From a virus, in IMG/VR virus record IMGVR_UViG_3300036770_005003, positions 1 to 26,750 of that record: a stretch of DNA of 26,750 nt. One strand, 5' to 3'. Below the pieces are notes generated by a model. It made no database searches and was not told where the DNA came from. It saw only the letters and a program-made list of their open reading frames with translations. This document shows positions 1-26,014 of the stretch, one piece after another; positions within the stretch are counted from its first letter, which is position 1, and each line of letters begins with the position of its first letter. The translations under genes and the position numbers were made by a program.

Positions 1-393
1 CTAATCCACGGATATGCTCTTAGTTTTCATTTTGAGTTCGAATGCGACACATTAGATGCTCGCAATTGGTGTATGGACTTCGGTGGATTAAAAAATCTAA
101 AACATAACTTAGAAGATTGGTTTGATCATACACTATTAGTTGCCCAAGACGATCCCCAGCGTGAAGAACTATTACGGTTGGGCTCATTAGGTTTGGCTAA
201 AATCACTGAAGTAGAAAAAACAGGCTGCGAAGGTATTGCAGACTTCTTATATGAATACGTAAATACCATTTACCTTCCAAGCTTTGGAAAAGGTGAAGCA
301 GAACGTGTTTGGTGCTGTCGAGTAGAAGTTCGCGAAACAGACTCAAACATGGCCATGCGTATAGGTCATAGAGAAGATAAAGAGTTCGTATAA
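1..393 (+). CDS. queD: 6-carboxy-tetrahydropterin synthase (QueD/PTPS family), 5'-truncated
   Basis: The frame is open from base 1, so the gene starts before the window; 130 residues are visible. QueD converts 7,8-dihydroneopterin triphosphate to 6-carboxy-tetrahydropterin, an early step to preQ0, the precursor of queuosine and of 7-deazaguanine DNA bases. The visible family signatures are IHGYALSFEFE at the left edge, DFGGLK at visible residues 26-31, and FDHTLLV with the catalytic Asp-His pair about ten residues later, followed by a late CEGIA segment and VEVRET. Classical QueD binds zinc through the two histidines of an HGH motif. Here the second is Tyr (HGY), which either marks a subfamily or changes metal binding. 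The next gene, a queuosine-precursor transporter, starts 10 bases after the stop, which supports the assignment. The N-terminal third cannot be judged. Confidence 0.88.
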   Translation, partial: LIHGYALSFHFEFECDTLDARNWCMDFGGLKNLKHNLEDWFDHTLLVAQDDPQREELLRLGSLGLAKITEVEKTGCEGIADFLYEYVNTIYLPSFGKGEAERVWCCRVEVRETDSNMAMRIGHREDKEFV

Positions 394-403
394 AGGAAAA
401 ATT

Positions 404-1036
404 ATGTTAAACAATCTCTTAAATGGAGTAGATCGTGTATTAGCTCTACGCTTGATGCTGGCACATATTGTTATTATTGCCATTAGTAACTATGTGGTGC
501 AATTTAAATTTGATGTATTTGGTCATCCATTGGCCGCGGCTGCATTTACATTCCCCTTAGTTGTAGTCTTAACTGATCTTACTGTAAGACTATTGGGCAA
601 ACAAACAGGTCGTGCAGTAGTAGGTATGGCATTTATTCCTGCTATCATTGTTTCAATGTTAGTGGTTAAATTAGGCGGTGCTCCAGACTCAGTTGCATTT
701 AGGATTGGACTTGGTAGTGGCATGGCCTACTTCATCAGTAACTTGTTAGATGTCTATGTGTTTCAATACTTCCGTGAAAAGTATCAGTCATGGTGGATTG
801 CTCCAACATTAAGCTCTATCGTAAGCACGTTTATTGATACTTATGTGTTCTTCTTCACAGCATTTGCCTATGGTGCCAATGAGTTTATGGCTGCTAACTG
901 GCATGTTGTAGCTACCAATAACTCAATCAGTAAAATTATTGTAAGCTTGTTAGTAATCCTACCTGCTTACGGATTACTATTGAACTGGCTACAAAAGAAA
1001 CTTGAAGAAAGACAAAATGATAACACAAATACGTGA
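404..1036 (+). CDS. yhhQ: Queuosine precursor transporter, YhhQ/VUT family
   Basis: This is a 210-residue polytopic inner-membrane protein. About six hydrophobic segments are visible, near residues 10-32, 40-62, 70-92, 97-118, 130-155 and 173-194. Segments such as AFTFPLVVVLTDLTVRLLG and FIDTYVFFFTAF are typical of the YhhQ/DUF165 family, which imports preQ0/preQ1. The length fits the family (about 210-230 residues). An AAAGGA Shine-Dalgarno at 393-397 supports the ATG at 404. It lies directly behind queD, so synthesis and uptake of deazaguanine precursors appear coupled in one operon. The C-terminus is charged and cytoplasmic-looking, and its last 20 bases overlap kdsA. The family call is confident; whether the substrate is preQ0 or preQ1 cannot be read from the sequence. 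Confidence 0.85.
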   Translation: MLNNLLNGVDRVLALRLMLAHIVIIAISNYVVQFKFDVFGHPLAAAAFTFPLVVVLTDLTVRLLGKQTGRAVVGMAFIPAIIVSMLVVKLGGAPDSVAFRIGLGSGMAYFISNLLDVYVFQYFREKYQSWWIAPTLSSIVSTFIDTYVFFFTAFAYGANEFMAANWHVVATNNSISKIIVSLLVILPAYGLLLNWLQKKLEERQNDNTNT

Positions 1037-1838
1037 TATCCAGATAGGTAAAGGTCACCCGTTATGTGTAATAGCGGGCCCTTGCCAAATTGAAAACAAG
1101 ACCCATGCTGAATTCCTAGCAGGAAAAATAAAACAGGTTTGCGATAGTTTAGAGCTTCCTGTAATTTATAAAAGCAGTTTTGATAAAGCTAATCGCAGTA
1201 GTCATCGGACTGGACGTGGTGTTGGCATGGAAAAAGGACTACAAATACTCAATGATATAAGATCAAAATTTGATATCCCAGTACTAACAGACATACACGA
1301 ATCATATCAAGCTGCTATTGTGGCCCAAGCTGGCATAGATGTCTTACAGATACCAGCGTTCCTATGTCGTCAAACTGACCTATTATTAGCTGCTGCCAAT
1401 ACAGGCAAGGCTATCAATGTTAAAAAAGGTCAGTTTCTTGCACCACACGACATGGAGAACGTGGCTAAGAAAATTTCCAGTACAGGCAATGAAAACATAT
1501 TATTATGTGAAAGAGGAGCAACTCATGGATATAACAATCTTGTTGTGGATATGCGTAGCCTGCCTATTATGGCAAGGACTGGTTACCCTGTGGTTTATGA
1601 CTGTACCCACAGCGTACAGCAGCCTGGAGGATTGGGTACCTCTTCTGGCGGGGATCGCGGGATGGTCCCTTACCTCGCAAGAGCAGCAGTTGCCACCGGA
1701 GAAGTAAGTGCCGTTTTTATTGAATGCCATGAAAATCCAGACTATGCTCCTAGTGACGGCCCGAATATGATAGTTCTGGATAATTTAAAACCTTTGCTAA
1801 AACAACTTAAAGAAATACACACCTTAGTAAATGGATAA
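1017..1838 (+). CDS. kdsA: 3-deoxy-8-phosphooctulonate (KDO-8-P) synthase, metal-dependent type
   Basis: KdsA condenses phosphoenolpyruvate with arabinose-5-phosphate to KDO-8-phosphate, the first committed step to the inner-core LPS sugar KDO. The 273-residue protein has full family length, with AGPCQIE, KSSFDKANRSS, VLTDIHE, IPAFLCRQTDLL, KKGQFLAPHDM, CERGATHGYNNL, THSVQQPGG and SGGDRGMVPYLARAA in the right order. Cys23, His198, Glu236 and Asp247 match the spacing of the metal ligands of the Aquifex enzyme (Cys11, His185, Glu222, Asp233), so this is the metal-dependent class. An in-frame TTG at 1002 is possible, but the ATG at 1017 is preceded by a GAAGAAAG purine run and is preferred. The gene overlaps the transporter by 20 bases and the downstream glycosyltransferase by 8, implying translational coupling. 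No kdsB, kdsC or kdsD is visible, so the product would enter the host pathway. Confidence 0.93.
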   Translation: MITQIRDIQIGKGHPLCVIAGPCQIENKTHAEFLAGKIKQVCDSLELPVIYKSSFDKANRSSHRTGRGVGMEKGLQILNDIRSKFDIPVLTDIHESYQAAIVAQAGIDVLQIPAFLCRQTDLLLAAANTGKAINVKKGQFLAPHDMENVAKKISSTGNENILLCERGATHGYNNLVVDMRSLPIMARTGYPVVYDCTHSVQQPGGLGTSSGGDRGMVPYLARAAVATGEVSAVFIECHENPDYAPSDGPNMIVLDNLKPLLKQLKEIHTLVNG

Positions 1839-2526
1839 ATGGATTATATGTCTTAAACATGGAGACAAATATTCATCTGTTTATGTAAACAGATTGTATA
1901 ATATGACTAAACGTCATAGCAAAACTAATTTTAAATTTGCCTGCTTGACCGAAAATAGTTCAGGATTAGATCCTAACATAATTGTTATTCCGTTACCATC
2001 AGTAGACTTAGTAGGATGGTGGTATAAGGTTTGGATATTCGATAGTGATTTTCCATTAAAAGGACAACTACTATATATGGATTTAGATATTGTTATTATT
2101 AATAACTTTGATCATATGTGGGATTTTGAACCAGATAAATTTTCTATTATACGAGACTTTAATAGAAAATTTATAAGTAATTACGAAAAATTTAACAGCA
2201 GCATTTTTAAACTTAAAACTGGTTCATTCCCACATGTCTGGAACAATCTTAAAGTTAACCCAGACATGATGCGTAGACTTCATGGGGATCAAGATTGGAT
2301 TTTTAAGCAGATTAAATCTAATTTTACCTTTTGGCCTGAAGATTGGATTCAAAGTTATAAATGGGAAATAAGATCAAAAAATGATTTAATTGCAGAAAAT
2401 GGCAAAAGAAAATTTAAAAATATAGCCGCACCATTTATTAAAAATGACACAAGTTTTCTCGTATTTCACGGAGACCCTAAACCTGAAGATGTAAAAGATC
2501 CAATTATTGTTGACAACTGGCAATAA
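1831..2526 (+). CDS. Putative GT-A fold glycosyltransferase with DxD motif
   Basis: This is a 231-residue soluble protein with no signal peptide. The N-terminal beta strand (DKWIICLKHG), a donor-site stretch LVGWWYKVWIF (residues 60-70) and MDLDIVI with a DxD motif at Asp84-Asp86 are the layout of small GT-A sugar transferases, where DxD holds the metal-bound nucleotide sugar. HGDQDWIFKQ near residue 150 resembles the conserved second half of GT8-like and related enzymes. Donor and acceptor cannot be told. The ATG lies inside the end of kdsA (8-base overlap), so the two are probably co-translated, which makes an LPS or other surface-glycan substrate plausible. Base composition is more AT-rich than kdsA. 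The next gene has its own promoter overlapping this gene's last codons. Confidence 0.68.
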   Translation: MDKWIICLKHGDKYSSVYVNRLYNMTKRHSKTNFKFACLTENSSGLDPNIIVIPLPSVDLVGWWYKVWIFDSDFPLKGQLLYMDLDIVIINNFDHMWDFEPDKFSIIRDFNRKFISNYEKFNSSIFKLKTGSFPHVWNNLKVNPDMMRRLHGDQDWIFKQIKSNFTFWPEDWIQSYKWEIRSKNDLIAENGKRKFKNIAAPFIKNDTSFLVFHGDPKPEDVKDPIIVDNWQ

Positions 2527-2538
2527 ACTGTGTATCAT
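2510..2538 (+). promoter_or_regulatory. sigma70-type promoter for uvdE
   Basis: A TTGACA box at 2510-2515 and a TATCAT box at 2533-2538 are separated by exactly 17 bases, 11 of 12 consensus positions. It overlaps the 3' end of the glycosyltransferase gene. The usual +1, about 7 bases after the -10 box, falls on the A of the ATG at 2545, so the transcript may be leaderless. Confidence 0.6.
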
Positions 2539-2544
2539 ACAAAC

Positions 2545-3573
2545 ATGAATAAACGTATAGGCTTTGCCTGCAAATGGATTGACCATCCTGGTCAAGTCGA
2601 TGGTATCAAACCCAAAGACGACTGTAAAAAATACAACACAGGTTCCACCACTGTGGCTTGGTTAAATAGACAGACCAAAGATCGTGCTGTAGAAAAACTT
2701 TGGGAATTAACAAAACAAAATATTGAATCTACGAGATTGCTAGTAGAAAAGGTAGGAAATTTAGACCATGGACTTAGAATGGTTCGTTTATCAAGCGATA
2801 TATTACCAGTATATACAGAGCCTACTTGGTGTTGGTTTTGGCGTCAACCTGACGTTATCGCTTATGCTGAAAAACACTTTGCCAAGGTTGGTGACCTTGC
2901 TCGTAGCCGTAGTGTGCGTCTGTCTTTTCATCCTGGTCAATTCACAGTTTTGGCTTCAGATAATCCAGACATTGTTAATAGAAGCATAGAGGAGTTTGAA
3001 TATCATGTGGATATGGCCCGTTGGATGGGATACGGTAAAGAATTTCAGGACTTCAAAATTAACGTCCACATCGCGGGTAGAGCCGGTCCCCAAGGTATTC
3101 GAGCAGCACTTAAGAGACTGTCTCCAGAAGCAAGAAACACAATTACCATCGAAAACGAGGAAATAAGTTATGGACTCGATGACTGCCTTTCTATTAGTGA
3201 TGTCGTTCCTATTGTTCTTGACATACATCATCATTGGATTCGCGAAGGCTCATATATCCAGCCTGGAGATGACCGTGTTAAAAGGGTTATCGATAGTTGG
3301 CGTGGCCGCCGTCCTACTTGCCATTATAGTGTCAGTAGAGAGGATATCTTGGTTGACCACTGCCCTCATACACCTCCCAATCATAAGGTTCTCTTAGAAT
3401 CAGGACATAAGAAACAAAAACTGCGGGCCCATAGTGATTTCTATTGGAACACCGCAGTTAATGAGTGGGCACTTGGCTTTTTAGAGTCTCACGATATCAT
3501 GTGCGAGTCTAAGGCTAAAAATCTAGCCAGCTTTAGCCTGCACAAACAGGCTAAGGAATTAGGCCTTAGTTGA
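2545..3573 (+). CDS. uvdE: UV DNA damage endonuclease (UvdE/UvsE family)
   Basis: UVDE nicks DNA 5' to cyclobutane dimers, 6-4 photoproducts and some other lesions, starting an alternative excision repair. The 342-residue product shows the family's TIM-barrel metal-site motifs: an N-terminal RIGFACKW, SFHPGQFTVL with His129, NVHIAG with His175, TIENEE with Glu203, and LDIHHHW with Asp226 and His228-230. It also has the C-terminal HSDFYW. An in-frame GTG at 2530 would add five residues but falls between the promoter boxes, so the ATG at 2545 is chosen. There is no Shine-Dalgarno before it. A phage repair enzyme fits a sunlit-water lifestyle. Its last 15 bases overlap the convergent EF-hand gene. 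Confidence 0.93.
   Translation: MNKRIGFACKWIDHPGQVDGIKPKDDCKKYNTGSTTVAWLNRQTKDRAVEKLWELTKQNIESTRLLVEKVGNLDHGLRMVRLSSDILPVYTEPTWCWFWRQPDVIAYAEKHFAKVGDLARSRSVRLSFHPGQFTVLASDNPDIVNRSIEEFEYHVDMARWMGYGKEFQDFKINVHIAGRAGPQGIRAALKRLSPEARNTITIENEEISYGLDDCLSISDVVPIVLDIHHHWIREGSYIQPGDDRVKRVIDSWRGRRPTCHYSVSREDILVDHCPHTPPNHKVLLESGHKKQKLRAHSDFYWNTAVNEWALGFLESHDIMCESKAKNLASFSLHKQAKELGLS
3531..3556. terminator. Inverted repeat at the convergent uvdE/EF-hand junction
   Basis: TTAGCCTG (3533-3540) and CAGGCTAA (3547-3554) form a perfect 8-bp stem with the six-base loop CACAAA. One C-G pair and one wobble pair extend it to 3531-3556. It lies in the last codons of uvdE and just past the stop of the minus-strand EF-hand gene. 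On the minus strand a T5 run follows some 12 bases later, so it could stop the EF-hand transcript, but this is not a classical U-tract terminator. Confidence 0.35.
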
Positions 3574-3885
3574 AGGCTTACGTCCGGTACGCTTTTTTAC
3601 TTCTGCTTTAACTTCTTCTACCTTGGCCTTAGCCTTGGCCTTGCCTCGCTTAACTGCTTCTTTAGCATCAGCAAGATCTACTTTACCATCTTGATTTAGG
3701 TCAAGTGGTTTAGCGGCTTCTTCTACCTTTTCTACTACCTTTTCTACAACAGGTTGAGCAGCAGCCTTGAGCTCTTCACCATCGATCTTACCATCTTTGT
3801 TGGTGTCAATCTTGTCTTTGCTGGTCAATACATAGGCAGCACCTACGCATACAGCAAGTAATAAAATTCCAAATAGAACTTCCAT
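3559..3885 (-). CDS. Small membrane-anchored protein with two EF-hand calcium-binding loops
   Basis: This is a 108-residue protein. Residues 3-20 are a hydrophobic segment without a clear signal-peptidase site, so it is probably a membrane anchor. Two EF-hand loops follow: DTNKDGKIDGEE (Asp27, Asn29, Asp31, Asp35, Glu38) and DLNQDGKVDLAD (Asp61, Asn63, Asp65, Asp69, Asp72). They are joined by an acidic/Val helix (residues 43-58). The C-terminal 30 residues are rich in Lys, Arg and Ala, like a nucleic-acid- or membrane-binding tail. The start is supported by an AAGGAGAG Shine-Dalgarno and a TATAAATA late promoter just upstream. Calcium binding is a strong prediction from the loops; the role in infection is unknown. 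It lies opposite to its neighbours as a one-gene late transcription unit and overlaps uvdE by 15 bases. Confidence 0.85.
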   Translation of the reverse strand: MEVLFGILLLAVCVGAAYVLTSKDKIDTNKDGKIDGEELKAAAQPVVEKVVEKVEEAAKPLDLNQDGKVDLADAKEAVKRGKAKAKAKVEEVKAEVKKRTGRKPSTKA

Positions 3886-3903
3886 AGTCCTCTCCTTGTG
3901 GAT

Positions 3904-3911
3904 TATTTATA
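3904..3911 (-). promoter_or_regulatory. T4-type late promoter TATAAATA for the EF-hand gene
   Basis: The minus strand reads TATAAATA exactly, the consensus bound by the T4-type late sigma gp55. With usual late-promoter geometry the transcript starts near 3898. That leaves a 13-base leader which is essentially just the AAGGAGAG ribosome site before the ATG at 3885. Confidence 0.7.
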
Positions 3912-3924
3912 GTTAAATAATATT

Positions 3925-4491
3925 ATGCCTTATAATTTTATCAAAAATGTAATACTAAATGAAAATACCCCTAGTAAAGAACTAGAACTACTGCCTTTAC
4001 CATATAGTAAAACTGATTTAGAGCCTGTCCTCAGTGAAGATGCTCTATTTTATCACTACAATAAACTGGCACAAGCTTATGTTGATCGTTATAATAAAAG
4101 AGAAGGTGACTTAGACTTTAATGAAGCTGGTGCTTTTTTACATAACCTATTATTTCCTCAATTTCAAAGAGTGGTAACAAGCAATGAACCAAATGGTCCT
4201 GCTCTTGATTTTATTAATGAAAACTATAAAAGCTTCGACAACTTTAAAAATAAATTTCAAGAAACTGCCATGGGCATACAAGGTAGTGGATGGGTCTATT
4301 TGGCCAAAGACGGTGATATAAAAACTATCACTAATCATCAGATACGCCAAGATATTGTCCTATTAATCGACTGGTGGGAACATGCTTGGGCACTTGATTA
4401 CAAATGGGACAAAAAGAAATACCTAGAAAATCAATGGAAGATAATTAACTGGGTGGTAATTGGAGCTCGTTTACAGACGGCTAATATCTAA
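3925..4491 (+). CDS. Fe/Mn superoxide dismutase-like protein
   Basis: The Fe/Mn-SOD family disproportionates superoxide at a mononuclear metal held by three His and one Asp. All four ligands can be placed in this 188-residue protein: His44 (FYHYNK), His73 (AFLHNLL), Asp149 and His153 (IDWWEHAW). The LPLPY...LEPVLS start, the QGSGWVYLA strand and the LDYKWDKKKYLENQW end also match the family. Tyr52 occupies the place of Tyr34. However, the usual KHHxxYV is KLAQAYV, so the active-site-channel His30 is Leu48. By hand alignment Gly69 and Gln139 fit the Mn-type pattern. About 20 extra residues precede the conserved start. It could be an active SOD or a non-enzymatic virion relative. No Shine-Dalgarno precedes the ATG; GTTAAATA at 3912-3919 is a weak late-promoter match. 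The 3' end overlaps the convergent zinc-ribbon gene by 21 bases. Confidence 0.8.
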   Translation: MPYNFIKNVILNENTPSKELELLPLPYSKTDLEPVLSEDALFYHYNKLAQAYVDRYNKREGDLDFNEAGAFLHNLLFPQFQRVVTSNEPNGPALDFINENYKSFDNFKNKFQETAMGIQGSGWVYLAKDGDIKTITNHQIRQDIVLLIDWWEHAWALDYKWDKKKYLENQWKIINWVVIGARLQTANI

Positions 4492-4758
4492 ATCACTATT
4501 AACACTTTTATCCCAAATAGTACGACGTTCAACACCTTTACGTTGAGCAAACTTTTTACTATTACAATCTTGACAACAATGAAAATAGTTATTGCTTAGT
4601 CGTTTAGGATCCATTTTTCCTATTTGCCGTGTAAAAATTAGACTGCAATTGTCACATCGTAATTTTGCCACCGAAGACTTTCTATAATATTGGTGTTCCT
4701 TACCTAATTTACTAATTCTTTTAAAACTTTTGTACTCTATTTCAGTGCTAATGTACAT
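4471..4758 (-). CDS. Small zinc-ribbon protein, conserved in T4-like marine phages
   Basis: This 95-residue basic protein carries CDNC (Cys35, Cys38) and, 23 residues on, CQDC (Cys62, Cys65), with His60 and Cys61 adjacent. This is a treble-clef or zinc-ribbon type metal site. The segment NNYFHCCQDCNSKKFAQ followed by KGVERRTIWD and a short SDLDIS tail resembles a small conserved protein I recall from T4-like cyanophages, but I know no function for it. A transcription- or nuclease-related role is only a guess from the fold. On the minus strand TGTAAATA (4764-4771) ends five bases before the ATG, so a late transcript, if it exists, would be leaderless. No Shine-Dalgarno is visible. It is convergent with the SOD-like gene. 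Confidence 0.72.
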   Translation of the reverse strand: MYISTEIEYKSFKRISKLGKEHQYYRKSSVAKLRCDNCSLIFTRQIGKMDPKRLSNNYFHCCQDCNSKKFAQRKGVERRTIWDKSVNSDLDISRL

Positions 4759-4763
4759 AATTT

Positions 4764-4771
4764 TATTTACA
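4764..4771 (-). promoter_or_regulatory. Candidate late promoter TGTAAATA for the zinc-ribbon gene
   Basis: Seven of eight bases match TATAAATA. It ends five bases upstream of the ATG at 4758, so the standard late-promoter +1 is the A of the start codon. The local DNA is very AT-rich, so chance is a serious alternative. Confidence 0.3.
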
Positions 4772-4778
4772 TTAAGGT

Positions 4779-4786
4779 TATAAAAA
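4779..4786 (+). promoter_or_regulatory. Candidate late promoter TATAAAAA before the Fe-S carrier and giant fibre genes
   Basis: Seven of eight bases match the late consensus, 35 bases before the ATG at 4822. It would drive the A-type carrier and the coupled giant gene. The stretch is AT-rich and the match is imperfect. Confidence 0.3.
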
Positions 4787-4821
4787 TATAAGGTAAATAT
4801 GTTAAAAGGATCTTAATATCT

Positions 4822-16767
<11,946 letters not shown>

Positions 16768-16768
<1 letters not shown>

Positions 16769-18219
16769 TGACAAAACAAGTAATTAATGTAGGCACAGCA
16801 GATAAAGGTAATGGCGATCCTTTACGAACAGCTTTTATCAAAGTCAATAGTAATTTTGATGAACTATATGCATCGTTGGCAGCAGACTTAACAAATGTAG
16901 GTACTAATATTATTCCAGATACAGATAACGTATACGATCTTGGTAGTGCTACACATAAATGGAGAAGTTTATATGTTAGCGGAAATACTATCTACTTAGA
17001 CAATATTGCACTAAGTGTCGAAGGAGGTGTTTTAAAATTAAACAATCAGGAAGTAGGTGAGTCGCCTGCATGGTCAAATATAACAGGTAAACCTCTTATA
17101 CCTACAAATTTAGATTCTTTAACTGATGTTAGTATAACAAGTGCAAGCTCAGGACAAGTATTAAAATACGATGGATCTAACTGGGTAAATGGAACAGATA
17201 ATAGTGGAAATCTAGATAAATTAATTGCTGGTGGTAAAGAAGTTGTATTAATTGGTGGATCAAATCCTTTTGTAACATTTCCCGCAGTGGCAACTGGTGA
17301 AAACATCATTATCCAAGGCGCTGAAATAGCATCCGCTAACGGAACCGTGGCAATTACATCATCTGGTTCTGTTGTTGTTAATACCAATGCTTTAACAGCC
17401 TTAAACACTTGGACATTCGGCGATGACGGCAACTTAGATCTGCCGTCAGGATTTATCAATTCTAACCAAGTAACTGGTTTAAATCTAAGATCTGGTTATG
17501 ATGTGCATATCATATCAAACCACATGGATGCTGATCATGAGTGGATATTAGATTCCTATGGCGACCTAACTATACCCGGCGGAATTAAGAGCGAAGGTGC
17601 TATCAATATCGATATCAACCTGAGTGATTCTACTCTAAGACGCTGGACATTCACAGAAGGTGGTGATTTAACTTTACCCGACGACGGAACGATACAAGTA
17701 AATTATGGTAACTTAAATTTATTTGCAGAAAATTATGTTTTTATAGATAGTACAGGCAATGGTCAGATTAACATTGGAAACGATAATCCCAACGGTACTC
17801 CTATTGTATTAGGTAACAAAAACTACGGTGGAACTGTAAATACATACGGTGATTTAATAATACAGGCAGGTGTGATTGAAAGATTTGCAGCGTTAGCTGA
17901 TGCTACCGGCACCGTAGAACATAGTTGCCTCGACGGACATATTTTTTATCACACAAGTCCAGATGCTAACTGGACTGCTAACATTACTAATTTAGAAATA
18001 AGCCAGTTGTATAGTACTGCTATTACCATTGTTATAGAACAAGGTGGTACTGGCTATTACCCTAGTGCTGTAGAAATTGAAGGAGTGTCACAGACAATTA
18101 ATTGGCAGGGCAACGCAACACCTACCCCCAGCACCAATAGAACAGATGTTGTTACATTTAGTATATTACTAAAAGCAAACGGTTCATATGTAGTGCTTGG
18201 ACAACTAACAGGATTCTAA
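16768..18219 (+). CDS. Tail-fibre-like structural protein with shared N-terminal leader
   Basis: This is a 483-residue protein. The N-terminus INVGTADKGNGDPLRTAF followed by VNSNFDELY is the same leader as the giant protein, so both probably dock to the same virion site. Residues around 55-70 (NVYDLGSATHKWRSLYV) resemble fibre proteins. The middle has repeated W-T-F/W-I-L...dGdLtlP units (WTFGDDGNLDLPSG, WILDSYGDLTIPGG, WTFTEGGDLTLPDD), as in repetitive beta fibres. The C-terminal 110 residues (GTVEHSCLDGHIFYH to VLGQLTGF) look like a tip domain I recall at the end of cyanophage fibres. Start and previous stop overlap as TAATG, so it is coupled to the giant gene. The specific receptor or position in the tail is not known. 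Confidence 0.78.
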
Positions 18220-18987: not shown

Positions 18988-20025
18988 ATGGCCATACAAA
19001 CAGTAAATTTAGGAACTTATGCTAACGATGGAACAGGCGACGATCTACGCACCGCTTTTACTAAAGTTAACAGCAACTTCGCAGAATTAGACACACTCAC
19101 CATTGTTGGTGGAACTAATCTTGGCAGCGGCAGTCCCGTATTTGCAAGTGTTGTAGCAGATGCAGGAACAGGCAATAAACTAAGCTTTCGTAGCATTTCT
19201 GCGGGCACAAACATTGCAGTCTCTAACGATAGTAACACAATATCCATCACAACTACAGGAACAATAACTGCTAACCTAACTGGTAATGTCGCAGGTAATG
19301 TAACAGGAAATCTTACTGGTAATGTCGCAGGTAATGTAACAGGAAATCTTACTGGTAATGTCACTGGACAAGTTAGCGATATTACTAATCATAAACTATC
19401 AGCGTTAGAAGATGTTAGTAATTTCGAACCGGTAGATGGTCAATTTTTAAGATACTCTTCAGGTCTATGGAGTTATACTGGAATTAATAGCGACATGATA
19501 GATGAGGGTACTAGTCGACTTTATTTCACTAATTACAGAGCTAGACAAAGTATAAGTGTTTCAGGTGATTTGTCTTATGACAACATAACAGGAATTTTAA
19601 GCTATACAGCTCCTACTAATTTAAGTCAATTCATCAATGATAGTCAGTATATTACTTCAGCAGCTCTAACAAGTTATGTAAATAATTCTATATCTACTTT
19701 AATTAATGGTGCCCCAGCATTTCTTGACACCCTGAATGAAATATCACAAGCAATTAACAATGATCAAAATTTTGCGGCAACTATAACTAATCAGCTAGCC
19801 TTAAAAGCAAATACAAGCTCACTTGCGATTGTTGCTATTAGTGGAAATTATAATGATTTAACTAATCGTCCAATTGAATCTATTCCAGGATCGACAATAG
19901 ATCTAGGTTCTATAATACCTAGACAAATATCATCATTATTAGAATTAGTAATTTATTCCGCTAATATTGACTTAGGCACATTCATTGACCCACTACCTTT
20001 ATTATATGATGCTGGAACAATATAA
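18988..20025 (+). CDS. Tail-fibre-like structural protein with leader module and Gly-Asn repeat
   Basis: This is a 345-residue protein, the third in this block with the leader (NLGTYANDGTGDDLRTAF followed by VNSNFAELD). Residues about 96-127 are a Thr/Ala-Gly-Asn-Val/Leu repeat encoded by a 36-bp tandem duplication. The second half has phage-fibre elements: DEGTSRLYFTNYRARQSI, LSQFINDSQYI and AFLDTLNEISQAINNDQNF. It ends with an unusual Leu/Ile-rich tail (IIPRQISSLLELVIYSANID) with no tip domain, so it may be a short connector or need a partner. AAAGAGAG upstream is the ribosome site, and a 27-base gap separates it from the lectin gene. It is probably a virion fibre subunit; its exact place is unknown. 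Confidence 0.75.
   Translation: MAIQTVNLGTYANDGTGDDLRTAFTKVNSNFAELDTLTIVGGTNLGSGSPVFASVVADAGTGNKLSFRSISAGTNIAVSNDSNTISITTTGTITANLTGNVAGNVTGNLTGNVAGNVTGNLTGNVTGQVSDITNHKLSALEDVSNFEPVDGQFLRYSSGLWSYTGINSDMIDEGTSRLYFTNYRARQSISVSGDLSYDNITGILSYTAPTNLSQFINDSQYITSAALTSYVNNSISTLINGAPAFLDTLNEISQAINNDQNFAATITNQLALKANTSSLAIVAISGNYNDLTNRPIESIPGSTIDLGSIIPRQISSLLELVIYSANIDLGTFIDPLPLLYDAGTI
19279..19362 (+). repeat. 36-bp perfect tandem repeat (2.3 copies) in a fibre gene
   Basis: Copies at 19279-19314 and 19315-19350 are identical; a third begins at 19351 and matches for 12 bases. Each unit encodes 12 residues, TGNVAGNVTGNL, itself built of three four-residue G-N units. Because 36 is divisible by three, copy-number change lengthens or shortens the fibre without breaking the frame. 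Confidence 0.95.
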
Positions 20026-23523: not shown

Positions 23524-24015
23524 ATGTTAAACGACAAATACGGCAATCCTATTTTTCAGGAACAAGAATTGTTTGAATTACTTTATCAAGGTCAGTTAGA
23601 TAATCTTGACAAACTAATTATAGAAAAAACCACTGAAACAGAAAACATTTCCAATCTAAAATTTGCCGATGATATAAGTTGCACAATAGAAGAGTTTGAT
23701 AAAACATGTCAGCAAAATTGGCAAATGCCAAAAGAATATAAAGAATTAGATATTAAAGAGCATATATTAAGTTTGTGTCCACCTTGGGATCCAGATTATT
23801 CAAGAGTAATAGATGAACTCGTAGAATTTGAAAATAGAAACATGATTGATCTATTAAGATGGCTAAAATACTTTGTTGACTCTTGTAGAAAAGAAAATAT
23901 AATATGGGGAGTAGGAAGAGGAAGTAGTGTGTCCAGTTATGTGCTTTTTTTAATAGGTGTACATAAAATTAATAGTTTGGGATATAATTTAGACTATAAA
24001 GAATTTTTTAGATAA
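23524..24015 (+). CDS. DnaE-like (DNA polymerase III alpha) palm fragment, lacking catalytic aspartates
   Basis: This is a 163-residue protein. Residues 93-163 follow the start of the polymerase III alpha palm: a helix ending LLRWLKYFVDSCRKENIIWG, then VGRGSSVSSYVLFLIG (129-145) and NSLGYNLDYKEFF (150-162). In DnaE the matching text is a GPGRGS.AGSLVAY.LGI motif and a DPL.YDLLFERF segment, followed by the PDxDxD catalytic aspartates. This protein stops exactly before that point, and no continuation exists in any frame before the next gene. It therefore keeps the GS-loop that contacts the incoming nucleotide but cannot polymerise. Residues 1-90 are acidic and not recognised, though CPPWDPDY (85-92) is notable. 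It could bind nucleotides or imitate part of the host replicase; both are inference. No usable Shine-Dalgarno precedes the ATG. Confidence 0.7.
   Translation: MLNDKYGNPIFQEQELFELLYQGQLDNLDKLIIEKTTETENISNLKFADDISCTIEEFDKTCQQNWQMPKEYKELDIKEHILSLCPPWDPDYSRVIDELVEFENRNMIDLLRWLKYFVDSCRKENIIWGVGRGSSVSSYVLFLIGVHKINSLGYNLDYKEFFR
23876..23903 (+). promoter_or_regulatory. Candidate sigma70-type promoter for the 24038-25094 gene group
   Basis: TTGACT (23876-23881), 16 bases, TATAAT (23898-23903): 11 of 12 positions. It lies inside the DnaE-like gene. A transcript would start near 23910 with a leader of about 128 bases before the ATG at 24038. Confidence 0.4.
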
Positions 24016-24037: not shown

Positions 24038-24253
24038 ATGGCAATGAAAGAACCACAAAGAAAAACATATCGCACAATGCAGGGTCAAGAAGTTGATTTA
24101 GATAAGCTAAGAATTAAAAACGAATCAGTCATAGCAGTTGGCAATGCGAAAATGAATGCTCGAGGGGATGAATTAGGTCCTGGAGGAAAAATTATTAAAA
24201 AACGTGAAGAGGCATCAGCAGAATATTATACAGATAATAAGGATATGAGATAA
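24038..24253 (+). CDS. Small conserved phage protein of unknown function
   Basis: This 71-residue soluble protein has an ideal AGGAG Shine-Dalgarno seven bases before the ATG. It is rich in charged residues; the segments TYRTMQGQEVDLDKL, AVGNAKMNARGDELGPGG and KIIKKREE look conserved and suggest a short, partly disordered adaptor rather than an enzyme. I recall proteins like this in T4-like cyanophages but not their role. It is followed after one base by the co-chaperonin gene, so the two are likely co-translated. No metal-binding motif or membrane segment is seen. Confidence 0.65.
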   Translation: MAMKEPQRKTYRTMQGQEVDLDKLRIKNESVIAVGNAKMNARGDELGPGGKIIKKREEASAEYYTDNKDMR

Positions 24254-24254
24254 C

Positions 24255-24599
24255 ATGGGTTATGATGTTGTAAAAGGAAAAGTGCGTCCAATTAGAGACC
24301 ATGTCCTTGTAACTGACCTACAAGAAGAAGGTATTCAACTTAAGTCTGGAATTTATATTCCTAGTCAAGATGGAAAAACTTCTGGGATTAAACCTAGATG
24401 GGCAAAAGTTTATGCTATTGGCCCAGAACAAAAGGATGTATCTATAGGCGAATGGATTTATGTAAGTCATGGACGATGGACTAGAGGTATAAAAATCGAA
24501 GAGGATGGAAAAGAACTTACACTACGCAGAATTGACAGTGATGATATACTGATCAAATCCGATGAACTACCCGAAGATATATTAATACAAAATGCCTAA
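24255..24599 (+). CDS. GroES-like co-chaperonin (T4 gp31 analogue)
   Basis: This is a 114-residue protein. The chaperonin-10 pattern is clear: VRPIRDHVLVTDL at the N-terminus (GroES IRPLHDRVIV), a mobile loop near residues 26-40 ending in SGIYIP, the position of the GroES GGIVL that docks to GroEL, then WAKVYAIGPEQKDVSIGEWI, ISHGRW-like hairpin (YVSHGRWTRGIKI) and a final DSDDILI. T4 gp31 replaces GroES so that host GroEL can fold the large capsid protein; an equivalent job here is probable. The KTSGIKPRW insertion after the loop is longer than in GroES. The end of the gene overlaps the MazG-like gene by 8 bases. Confidence 0.85.
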   Translation: MGYDVVKGKVRPIRDHVLVTDLQEEGIQLKSGIYIPSQDGKTSGIKPRWAKVYAIGPEQKDVSIGEWIYVSHGRWTRGIKIEEDGKELTLRRIDSDDILIKSDELPEDILIQNA

Positions 24600-25096: not shown

Positions 25097-26014
25097 ATGA
25101 AAGAACTGTGGACAGAGAAATACAGACCTAGAACCTTGGACGGATATGTGTTTAAAGATGAGGCTACCAAAGCACAAATTGAACAGTGGGTTAAAGAATG
25201 TAGTATTCCACATCTATTGTTTAGTGGCAGTGCCGGTATAGGTAAAACTACTTTGGCAAAAATATTAATCAATCTTCTTAATGTAGAAGACACAGATGTG
25301 TTATTTGCCAACGGCAGTAAAGAAGGAAGAAAGATTGAATGGGTAGATAAACTAATAGGGTTTTGTCAAACTATGCCATTTGGAGAATTTAAAGTAGTTA
25401 TTATTGATGAAGCAGACTATCTTAATGCACAAAGTGTACAGCCTGCTATGCGTAATCTAATGGAACAATATAGTCAAACAGTTCGTTTTATTTTAACTTG
25501 TAATTATCCTAATAAAATTATCCCACCATTACATAGTCGCTGTCAAAAAATACACATCGAACGCACTGACATAGACGAGTTTACAGCTAGAGTAGCTACT
25601 ATACTGGTAGAAGAAAATATAGAATTTGACTTAGACACATTAGATACTTTCGTAAAGGCCACTTATCCAGATTTACGAAAATGTATTAACAATGCTCAAA
25701 TGAACAGTATCGGCGGTTCACTTAAACGAGAAGAATCCAGTAATGATTCTCAAGACTATCGTATTGAAATGGTAGAACTATTTAAGAAAGGTAAAATAAG
25801 TGAAGCACGAAAGCTAGTATGCGGACAGGTAAGACCTGAAGAAATAGAAGATGTTTATCGCTGGCTTTATGATAATGTTGAAATATTTGGAGATGAAGCC
25901 AGACAAGAAAAGGCTATTCTTACAATCAAGCAAGGGCTGGTAGATCATTCCTTAGTAATGGACCCAGAAATCAATCTAGCAGCCACTCTTATCAGACTAA
26001 GTCATATTAGTTAA
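25097..26014 (+). CDS. 44: Sliding clamp loader large subunit (T4 gp44-like AAA+ ATPase)
   Basis: This 305-residue AAA+ protein, together with a gp62-type partner, loads the gp45 clamp on DNA for the replicative polymerase and for late transcription. It begins LWTEKYRPRTLDGYVF, the standard clamp-loader opening. Walker A is GSAGIGKTT (residues 44-52), Walker B is VVIIDEAD with Asp104-Glu105, and the SRC motif with arginine finger is Ser147-Arg148-Cys149. The collar domain fills the C-terminal third. The length matches T4 gp44 (about 319 residues). Its partner subunit and clamp genes are not in the window. It has its own consensus sigma70 promoter and an AAGAGG ribosome site. Its stop overlaps the convergent phoH stop by 4 bases. 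Confidence 0.95.
   Translation: MKELWTEKYRPRTLDGYVFKDEATKAQIEQWVKECSIPHLLFSGSAGIGKTTLAKILINLLNVEDTDVLFANGSKEGRKIEWVDKLIGFCQTMPFGEFKVVIIDEADYLNAQSVQPAMRNLMEQYSQTVRFILTCNYPNKIIPPLHSRCQKIHIERTDIDEFTARVATILVEENIEFDLDTLDTFVKATYPDLRKCINNAQMNSIGGSLKREESSNDSQDYRIEMVELFKKGKISEARKLVCGQVRPEEIEDVYRWLYDNVEIFGDEARQEKAILTIKQGLVDHSLVMDPEINLAATLIRLSHIS

Follow-up and report, generated by a model that had tools for sequence, protein, structure and literature searches.

The N-terminal half of a probable two-gene DNA polymerase III alpha core in an uncultured virus

Introduction

Iyer et al. (2021; PMC7824862) propose that a minimal DNA polymerase III alpha (Pol III alpha) is split into two genes in the group 2.2 jumbo phages, and place Atu_ph07 in that group. 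Pol III alpha proteins are also mentioned in papers on individual phages: a 172-aa 'truncated' alpha was described from CBB (PMC5259590), and according to the Atu_ph07 paper most Rak2-like phages share a conserved Pol III alpha (PMC6102473). A literature search that covered few subscription papers gave Iyer et al. as the only account of the split, and no bench test of a split Pol III alpha was found in the literature searched.

The split system is therefore already known as a proposal, and the stretch of DNA analysed here (the window, 26,750 bases, IMG/VR record IMGVR_UViG_3300036770_005003) holds the N-terminal half (N-half) of a new member. The arrangement seen here across relatives agrees with the text of Iyer et al. 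(2021) in having a separate gene for an N-terminal NTP-binding half, a distant gene for a C-terminal Mg/template half (C-half) and a B-family polymerase beside them; the window virus differs in being uncultured, and its fragment shows only the N-half. From that text we infer that the two genes of Iyer et al. are PHROG 11127 (N) and PHROG 11778 (C). New here are the junction at residue level, occurrence counts, a non-jumbo carrier of 141 kb, an estimate of selection, models, and the gene neighbourhoods of both halves in uncultured phages.

The N-terminal half and its end point

An earlier reading of the window from its sequence alone had recognised DnaE homology in a 163-aa ORF (Table 1), and profile searches bear this out. 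Pfam PF07733 (DNA_pol3_alpha) matches the last 70 residues with E=1.3e-8 and 35.2 bits (curated cut-off 23.9 bits), and PHROG 11127 ('DNA polymerase', 171 positions) matches the ORF up to position 171/171 with E=3.3e-38. When a profile of 76 relatives was compared with the PDB, Pol III alpha chains were the sole matches at E<1. The AlphaFold2 model of the window protein has a mean pLDDT of 90.1. Structure prediction, which the sequence-only reading had proposed together with a profile search as a check against DnaE, also led to Pol III alpha, which accounted for all of the top 11 Foldseek matches in the PDB, although these were individually weak (best E=0.067).

The segment GVGRGSSVSS...YNLDYKEFFR corresponds to the GS-loop segment of DnaE, where the GS loop lies at the site of the incoming nucleotide. 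The identification of this loop, already made from the sequence, holds, and six of the seven GVGRGSS positions are invariant in 76 sequences (Table 1). Further upstream, hhalign placed the WxMPxEYKxLDI segment on the run-up to the palm in DnaE, the alignment to the E. coli protein starting at residue 273. The ORF ends just short of the PDxDxDF position, as had been noted: the PF07733 match is confined to profile positions 25-94 of 260, and so ends before the catalytic aspartates, and the N-half profile matches E. coli Pol III alpha no further than residue 392-393, a few positions short of the PDFDVDF at 400. Both PDxDxD and the third aspartate are absent from the N-half chain, which ends ahead of them, and the three frames downstream hold no PDxDxD continuation, again in agreement with the earlier reading. 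No match to a PHP domain was obtained in the N-half ORF or in the neighbouring ORFs.

Among 50,697 phage records, tblastn gave relatives of the N-half in 60, including RaK2, GAP32, CBB, PA5oct/Paride, Atu_ph07, SCTP-2, XacN1 and Phosso. In IMG/VR a single-sequence query gave 34 loci and an alignment query at least 589 stretches encoding N-half relatives, of which 80 were kept. With so many relatives, the ORF is not a product of chance. The window protein has a best identity of 63% to other IMG/VR members and of less than 50% to isolates over the aligned part. A common end point among relatives had been suggested as something to look for, and in 42/42 relatives inspected the stop comes 0-2 residues after the homology gives out, in most cases behind EFL(R/K). 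Besides the residues listed in Table 1, E98, S138, L141, H147, Y154 and F161 are invariant in 76 sequences. Close relatives compared in pairs give dN/dS values of about 0.11 (L011/L015) and about 0.14 (L019/L020), and the N-half is thus under purifying selection.

Table 1. Coordinates of the features discussed (positions in the window unless a contig is named)
Feature	Position	Strand	Remarks
N-half of split minimal Pol III alpha (PHROG 11127)	23524..24015	+	ATG start, 163 aa, TAA stop
WxMPxEYKxLDI conserved segment (aa 66-76)	23719..23751	+	W66, P69 invariant; Y72 nearly so
GS loop GVGRGSS (aa 129-135)	23908..23928	+	G129, G131, R132, G133, S134, S135 invariant (76 sequences)
Split point: conserved C-terminal end YNLDYKEFFR, equivalent to DnaE LLFERFL	23983..24012	+	end constant, 42/42 relatives
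Small syntenic ORF (PHROG 14844)	24038..24253	+	conserved neighbour; 3' of N-half in 70/75 loci
GroES/gp31-like co-chaperonin	24255..24599	+	PF00166 E=1.3e-8; conserved neighbour, 75/75 loci
gp44-like clamp loader	25097..26014	+	PHROG 168 E=1.1e-78; conserved replication neighbour, 70/75 loci
Single-chain PHP-less DnaE	L263:1806-3530	+	marine C-half contig
Single-chain PHP-less DnaE	L264:3590-5281	-	PF07733 E=1.6e-43, PF17657 E=1.6e-14

The C-terminal half

Searches of eight complete relatives with PHROG 405 and PF17657 revealed a second short gene, the C-half, in most of them. This gene is PHROG 11778 ('DNA polymerase') and encodes about 190-215 aa. Its protein starts with (P/T)DIDIDF, followed in order by H-N-x-G-V/I, YK-A-E, KxDxLN, the fingers motif A-x-IRPxK and FKKSHAxxYA. 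The two metal aspartates are thus on this protein, as are the third aspartate, within the KxD, and the fingers motif KSHxxxYA; their counterparts in E. coli are PDFDVDF (from 400), K553/D555 and the KSH of NKSHS (K758-H760). Invariant in 40 IMG/VR C-halves are D3, D5, D7, K66, D68, R135, K165, K166 and H168. One C-half was modelled by AlphaFold2 with a pLDDT of 90.6, and the top 13 Foldseek matches of this model in the PDB are all Pol III alpha (best E=4.1e-4). PF07733 by itself was rejected as a detector, having missed the C-half in complete relatives; weak extra PF07733 matches in W05 and W08 carried stops and were dropped.

The sequence-only reading had taken the window ORF for an orphan, a domesticated fragment without catalysis. 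This is not borne out, since in every complete relative checked the aspartates lie on a separate conserved gene, which makes the ORF half of a split enzyme and not a remnant. The C-half profile had no match across the 26.7-kb fragment, and its ORF list contains no B-family polymerase; the record is a fragment of 26,750 bases, and any C-half or B-family polymerase of the virus itself would lie outside it. The practical lesson for the window is that its 'missing' catalytic half probably lies in another part of the genome.

Co-occurrence and fit of the two halves

Each of two different C-half queries gave 63 phage records by tblastn, and all 60 N-half records lie within these 63, as judged from the listed rows and organism counts. 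The three further records are PP728206, a partial 109-kb record from a RaK2-like phage, and those of two Alishewanella phages of 141 kb, of which one, Slicko01, was tested and did give an N-half with the N-half profile (E=2.7e-19). Both profiles were also run on 25 IMG/VR contigs. The five longest of these (G006 to G010, 181-372 kb; 5/5 over 175 kb), which had been drawn from C-half searches or alignment-based N-half searches, carried both halves at separate places, and the shorter ones held one half. Both halves are present in 15/15 genomes examined, and no fusion of the two in one ORF was seen among 151 N-type and 101 C-type ORFs.

A concatenated profile of the joined halves from 15 genomes was aligned by hhalign with E. 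coli DnaE along one collinear path (residues 273-642, E=5.4e-9), and was likewise collinear with a single-chain phage DnaE (E=7.6e-10). At the junction the last matched residues of the N-half are FL and the C-half takes up the alignment again at MPD, which leaves NPERVS as the only loss. Compared with bacterial DnaE (E. coli DnaE, M. tuberculosis DnaE1, Taq Pol III alpha), the pair shares the GS loop and the order of the palm, the N-half being collinear with residues 273-393 and the C-half from about 400 onward. It differs in being encoded by two genes, in the loss of the PHP domain, the NPERVS linker and most of the thumb, in its reduced fingers, and in having nothing that matches the C-terminal domains of DnaE.

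Distances between genomes computed from the N-half and from the C-half are correlated (Mantel r=0.82, 0/5000 permutations), and a partial correlation of 0.51 is left after correction for gp44. The distances of the halves correlate about as strongly with those of gp44 (0.76, 0.84), and the N-C correlation therefore reflects co-inheritance more than contact: it shows shared descent without swapping and points only weakly to a specific link between the two proteins.

Gene neighbourhoods and other polymerases

The window N-half has the conserved GroES-like and gp44 neighbours of PHROG 11127 members (Table 1); in IMG/VR the GroES-like gene was within 4.5 kb downstream of the N-half in 75/75 loci, and gp44 in 70/75. 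In relatives the C-half sits far from the N-half, between uvsW and gp61-gp41: uvsW was upstream in 43/43 IMG/VR loci, and gp61 and gp41 were no more than 5.8 kb downstream in 39/40. A DnaQ-like exonuclease, searched for with a RaK2 query as a conserved partner of the C-half, was found in 0/43 IMG/VR loci. The T4-type late promoter TATAAATA has 2 matches in the window, which is below chance expectation, and none is near the N-half gene. In Slicko01 (L080 / L267), which at 141 kb is below jumbo size, the two halves are about 11 kb apart, gp44 is close to the C-half and the gene order is unlike that of the jumbo relatives.

That T4-like phages with this gene would also have a B-family polymerase had been anticipated, and PF00136 was found in 15/15 pair-bearing genomes checked. 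Six C-half loci carry a separate single-chain DnaE. In marine C-half contigs this is a PHP-less protein of 563-574 aa encoded a few kb downstream of the C-half; in L263 and L264 it sits just after gp41 and an Nth-like ORF, and is a second C-family polymerase beside the split one. Its best match in the phage records is LR756508 (484 kb, uncultured), at 38% identity. These single-chain proteins (PHROG 405/11165-like) resemble the split pair in being a C-family core without PHP on T4-like phage contigs, and differ in forming one chain with complete PF07733 and fingers, additional to the split C-half.

What the pair may do

The best explanation of these data is that the window ORF is, probably, the N-half of a minimal two-gene Pol III alpha (C-family) core, which most likely assembles in trans with the C-half. 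The same split was proposed independently by Iyer et al. (2021). The N-half would contribute the stretch that runs into the palm as well as the GS loop, which in DnaE holds the phosphates of the incoming nucleotide. From the C-half would come the strand bearing both metal-binding aspartates, together with the KxD that carries the third catalytic aspartate and the reduced fingers. Assembly of the two proteins would then complete one beta-Pol-type nucleotidyltransferase active site. The pair may act beside the phage B-family replicase with its gp44 clamp loader, candidate roles being synthesis of one strand, repair, or primer extension near gp61-gp41. The stronger claim, that two proteins of about 165 and 195 residues give many large T4-like viruses, a 141-kb non-jumbo phage among them, a second, active DNA polymerase that shares the fork with the B-family replicase, is made tentatively, and we place it slightly below an even chance.

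Since the pair lacks most of the thumb and some of the fingers, it may be inactive or a different nucleotidyltransferase. It is thus conceivable, if rather unlikely, that the halves assemble into something other than a DNA polymerase, either a nucleotidyltransferase that acts on another substrate or a part of the replisome that has no activity and serves in structure or regulation, and that these phages already have a B-family polymerase fits such a role. However, little or no variation is seen in the three catalytic aspartates, the lysine, the GS loop or the KSH motif, and the genes lie among gp61, gp41, uvsW and gp44. A further alternative dispenses with assembly, the N-half alone being a nucleotide-binding or host-replicase-interfering protein and the C-half a separate protein. 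The N-half is indeed a stand-alone, well-conserved ORF modelled with high AlphaFold2 confidence, and the two genes are far apart, but it co-occurs strictly with a complementary half and, in DnaE coordinates, ends where the C-half starts, which makes this improbable; for interference with a replicase there is no positive evidence.

Least credible of all is the view that a full-length DnaE was taken up from a host and is now decaying, with the N-half as what is left of it; this could appeal to the shortness of the N-half relative to DnaE and to the CBB paper, in which the homologue was called truncated (PMC5259590). The constant end in 42 relatives and the low dN/dS (about 0.1) are a strong argument against decay and refute a pseudogene. 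Moreover, relatives occur in at least 589 contig stretches, and a full-length polymerase in relatives, which the sequence-only reading had named as the sign of a decaying copy, was not found, a search of 13 pair-bearing genomes having given no full-length DnaE.

Should the two halves prove active together, they would make up a C-family polymerase of very small size, one split by nature so that its nucleotide-binding and metal-binding parts are on different proteins, with a B-family replicase beside it in one virus. The minimal Pol III core would then be directly testable in isolated phages such as RaK2, GAP32, 121Q, Paride and Atu_ph07.

Other features of the window

A cluster of host-like metabolic genes at 73-5175 encodes a Vut_1 transporter, a DAHP/KDO8P synthase, a UvdE endonuclease, PTPS, an Fe/Mn superoxide dismutase and an Fe-S assembly protein; we take Vut_1 to be YhhQ-like, PTPS to be QueD-like and the Fe-S assembly protein to be IscA-like. 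On the minus strand at 3559-3885 a 108-aa protein has EF-hand/dockerin-like calcium-binding motifs and an N-terminal hydrophobic stretch. The ORFs at 5177-16768 (3863 aa), 16768-18219 and 18988-20025 have a similar N-terminus, resembling G..GNDGTGD.LR.AF.KVN.NF.(D/E)LY, which suggests that they may be a family of related structural proteins.
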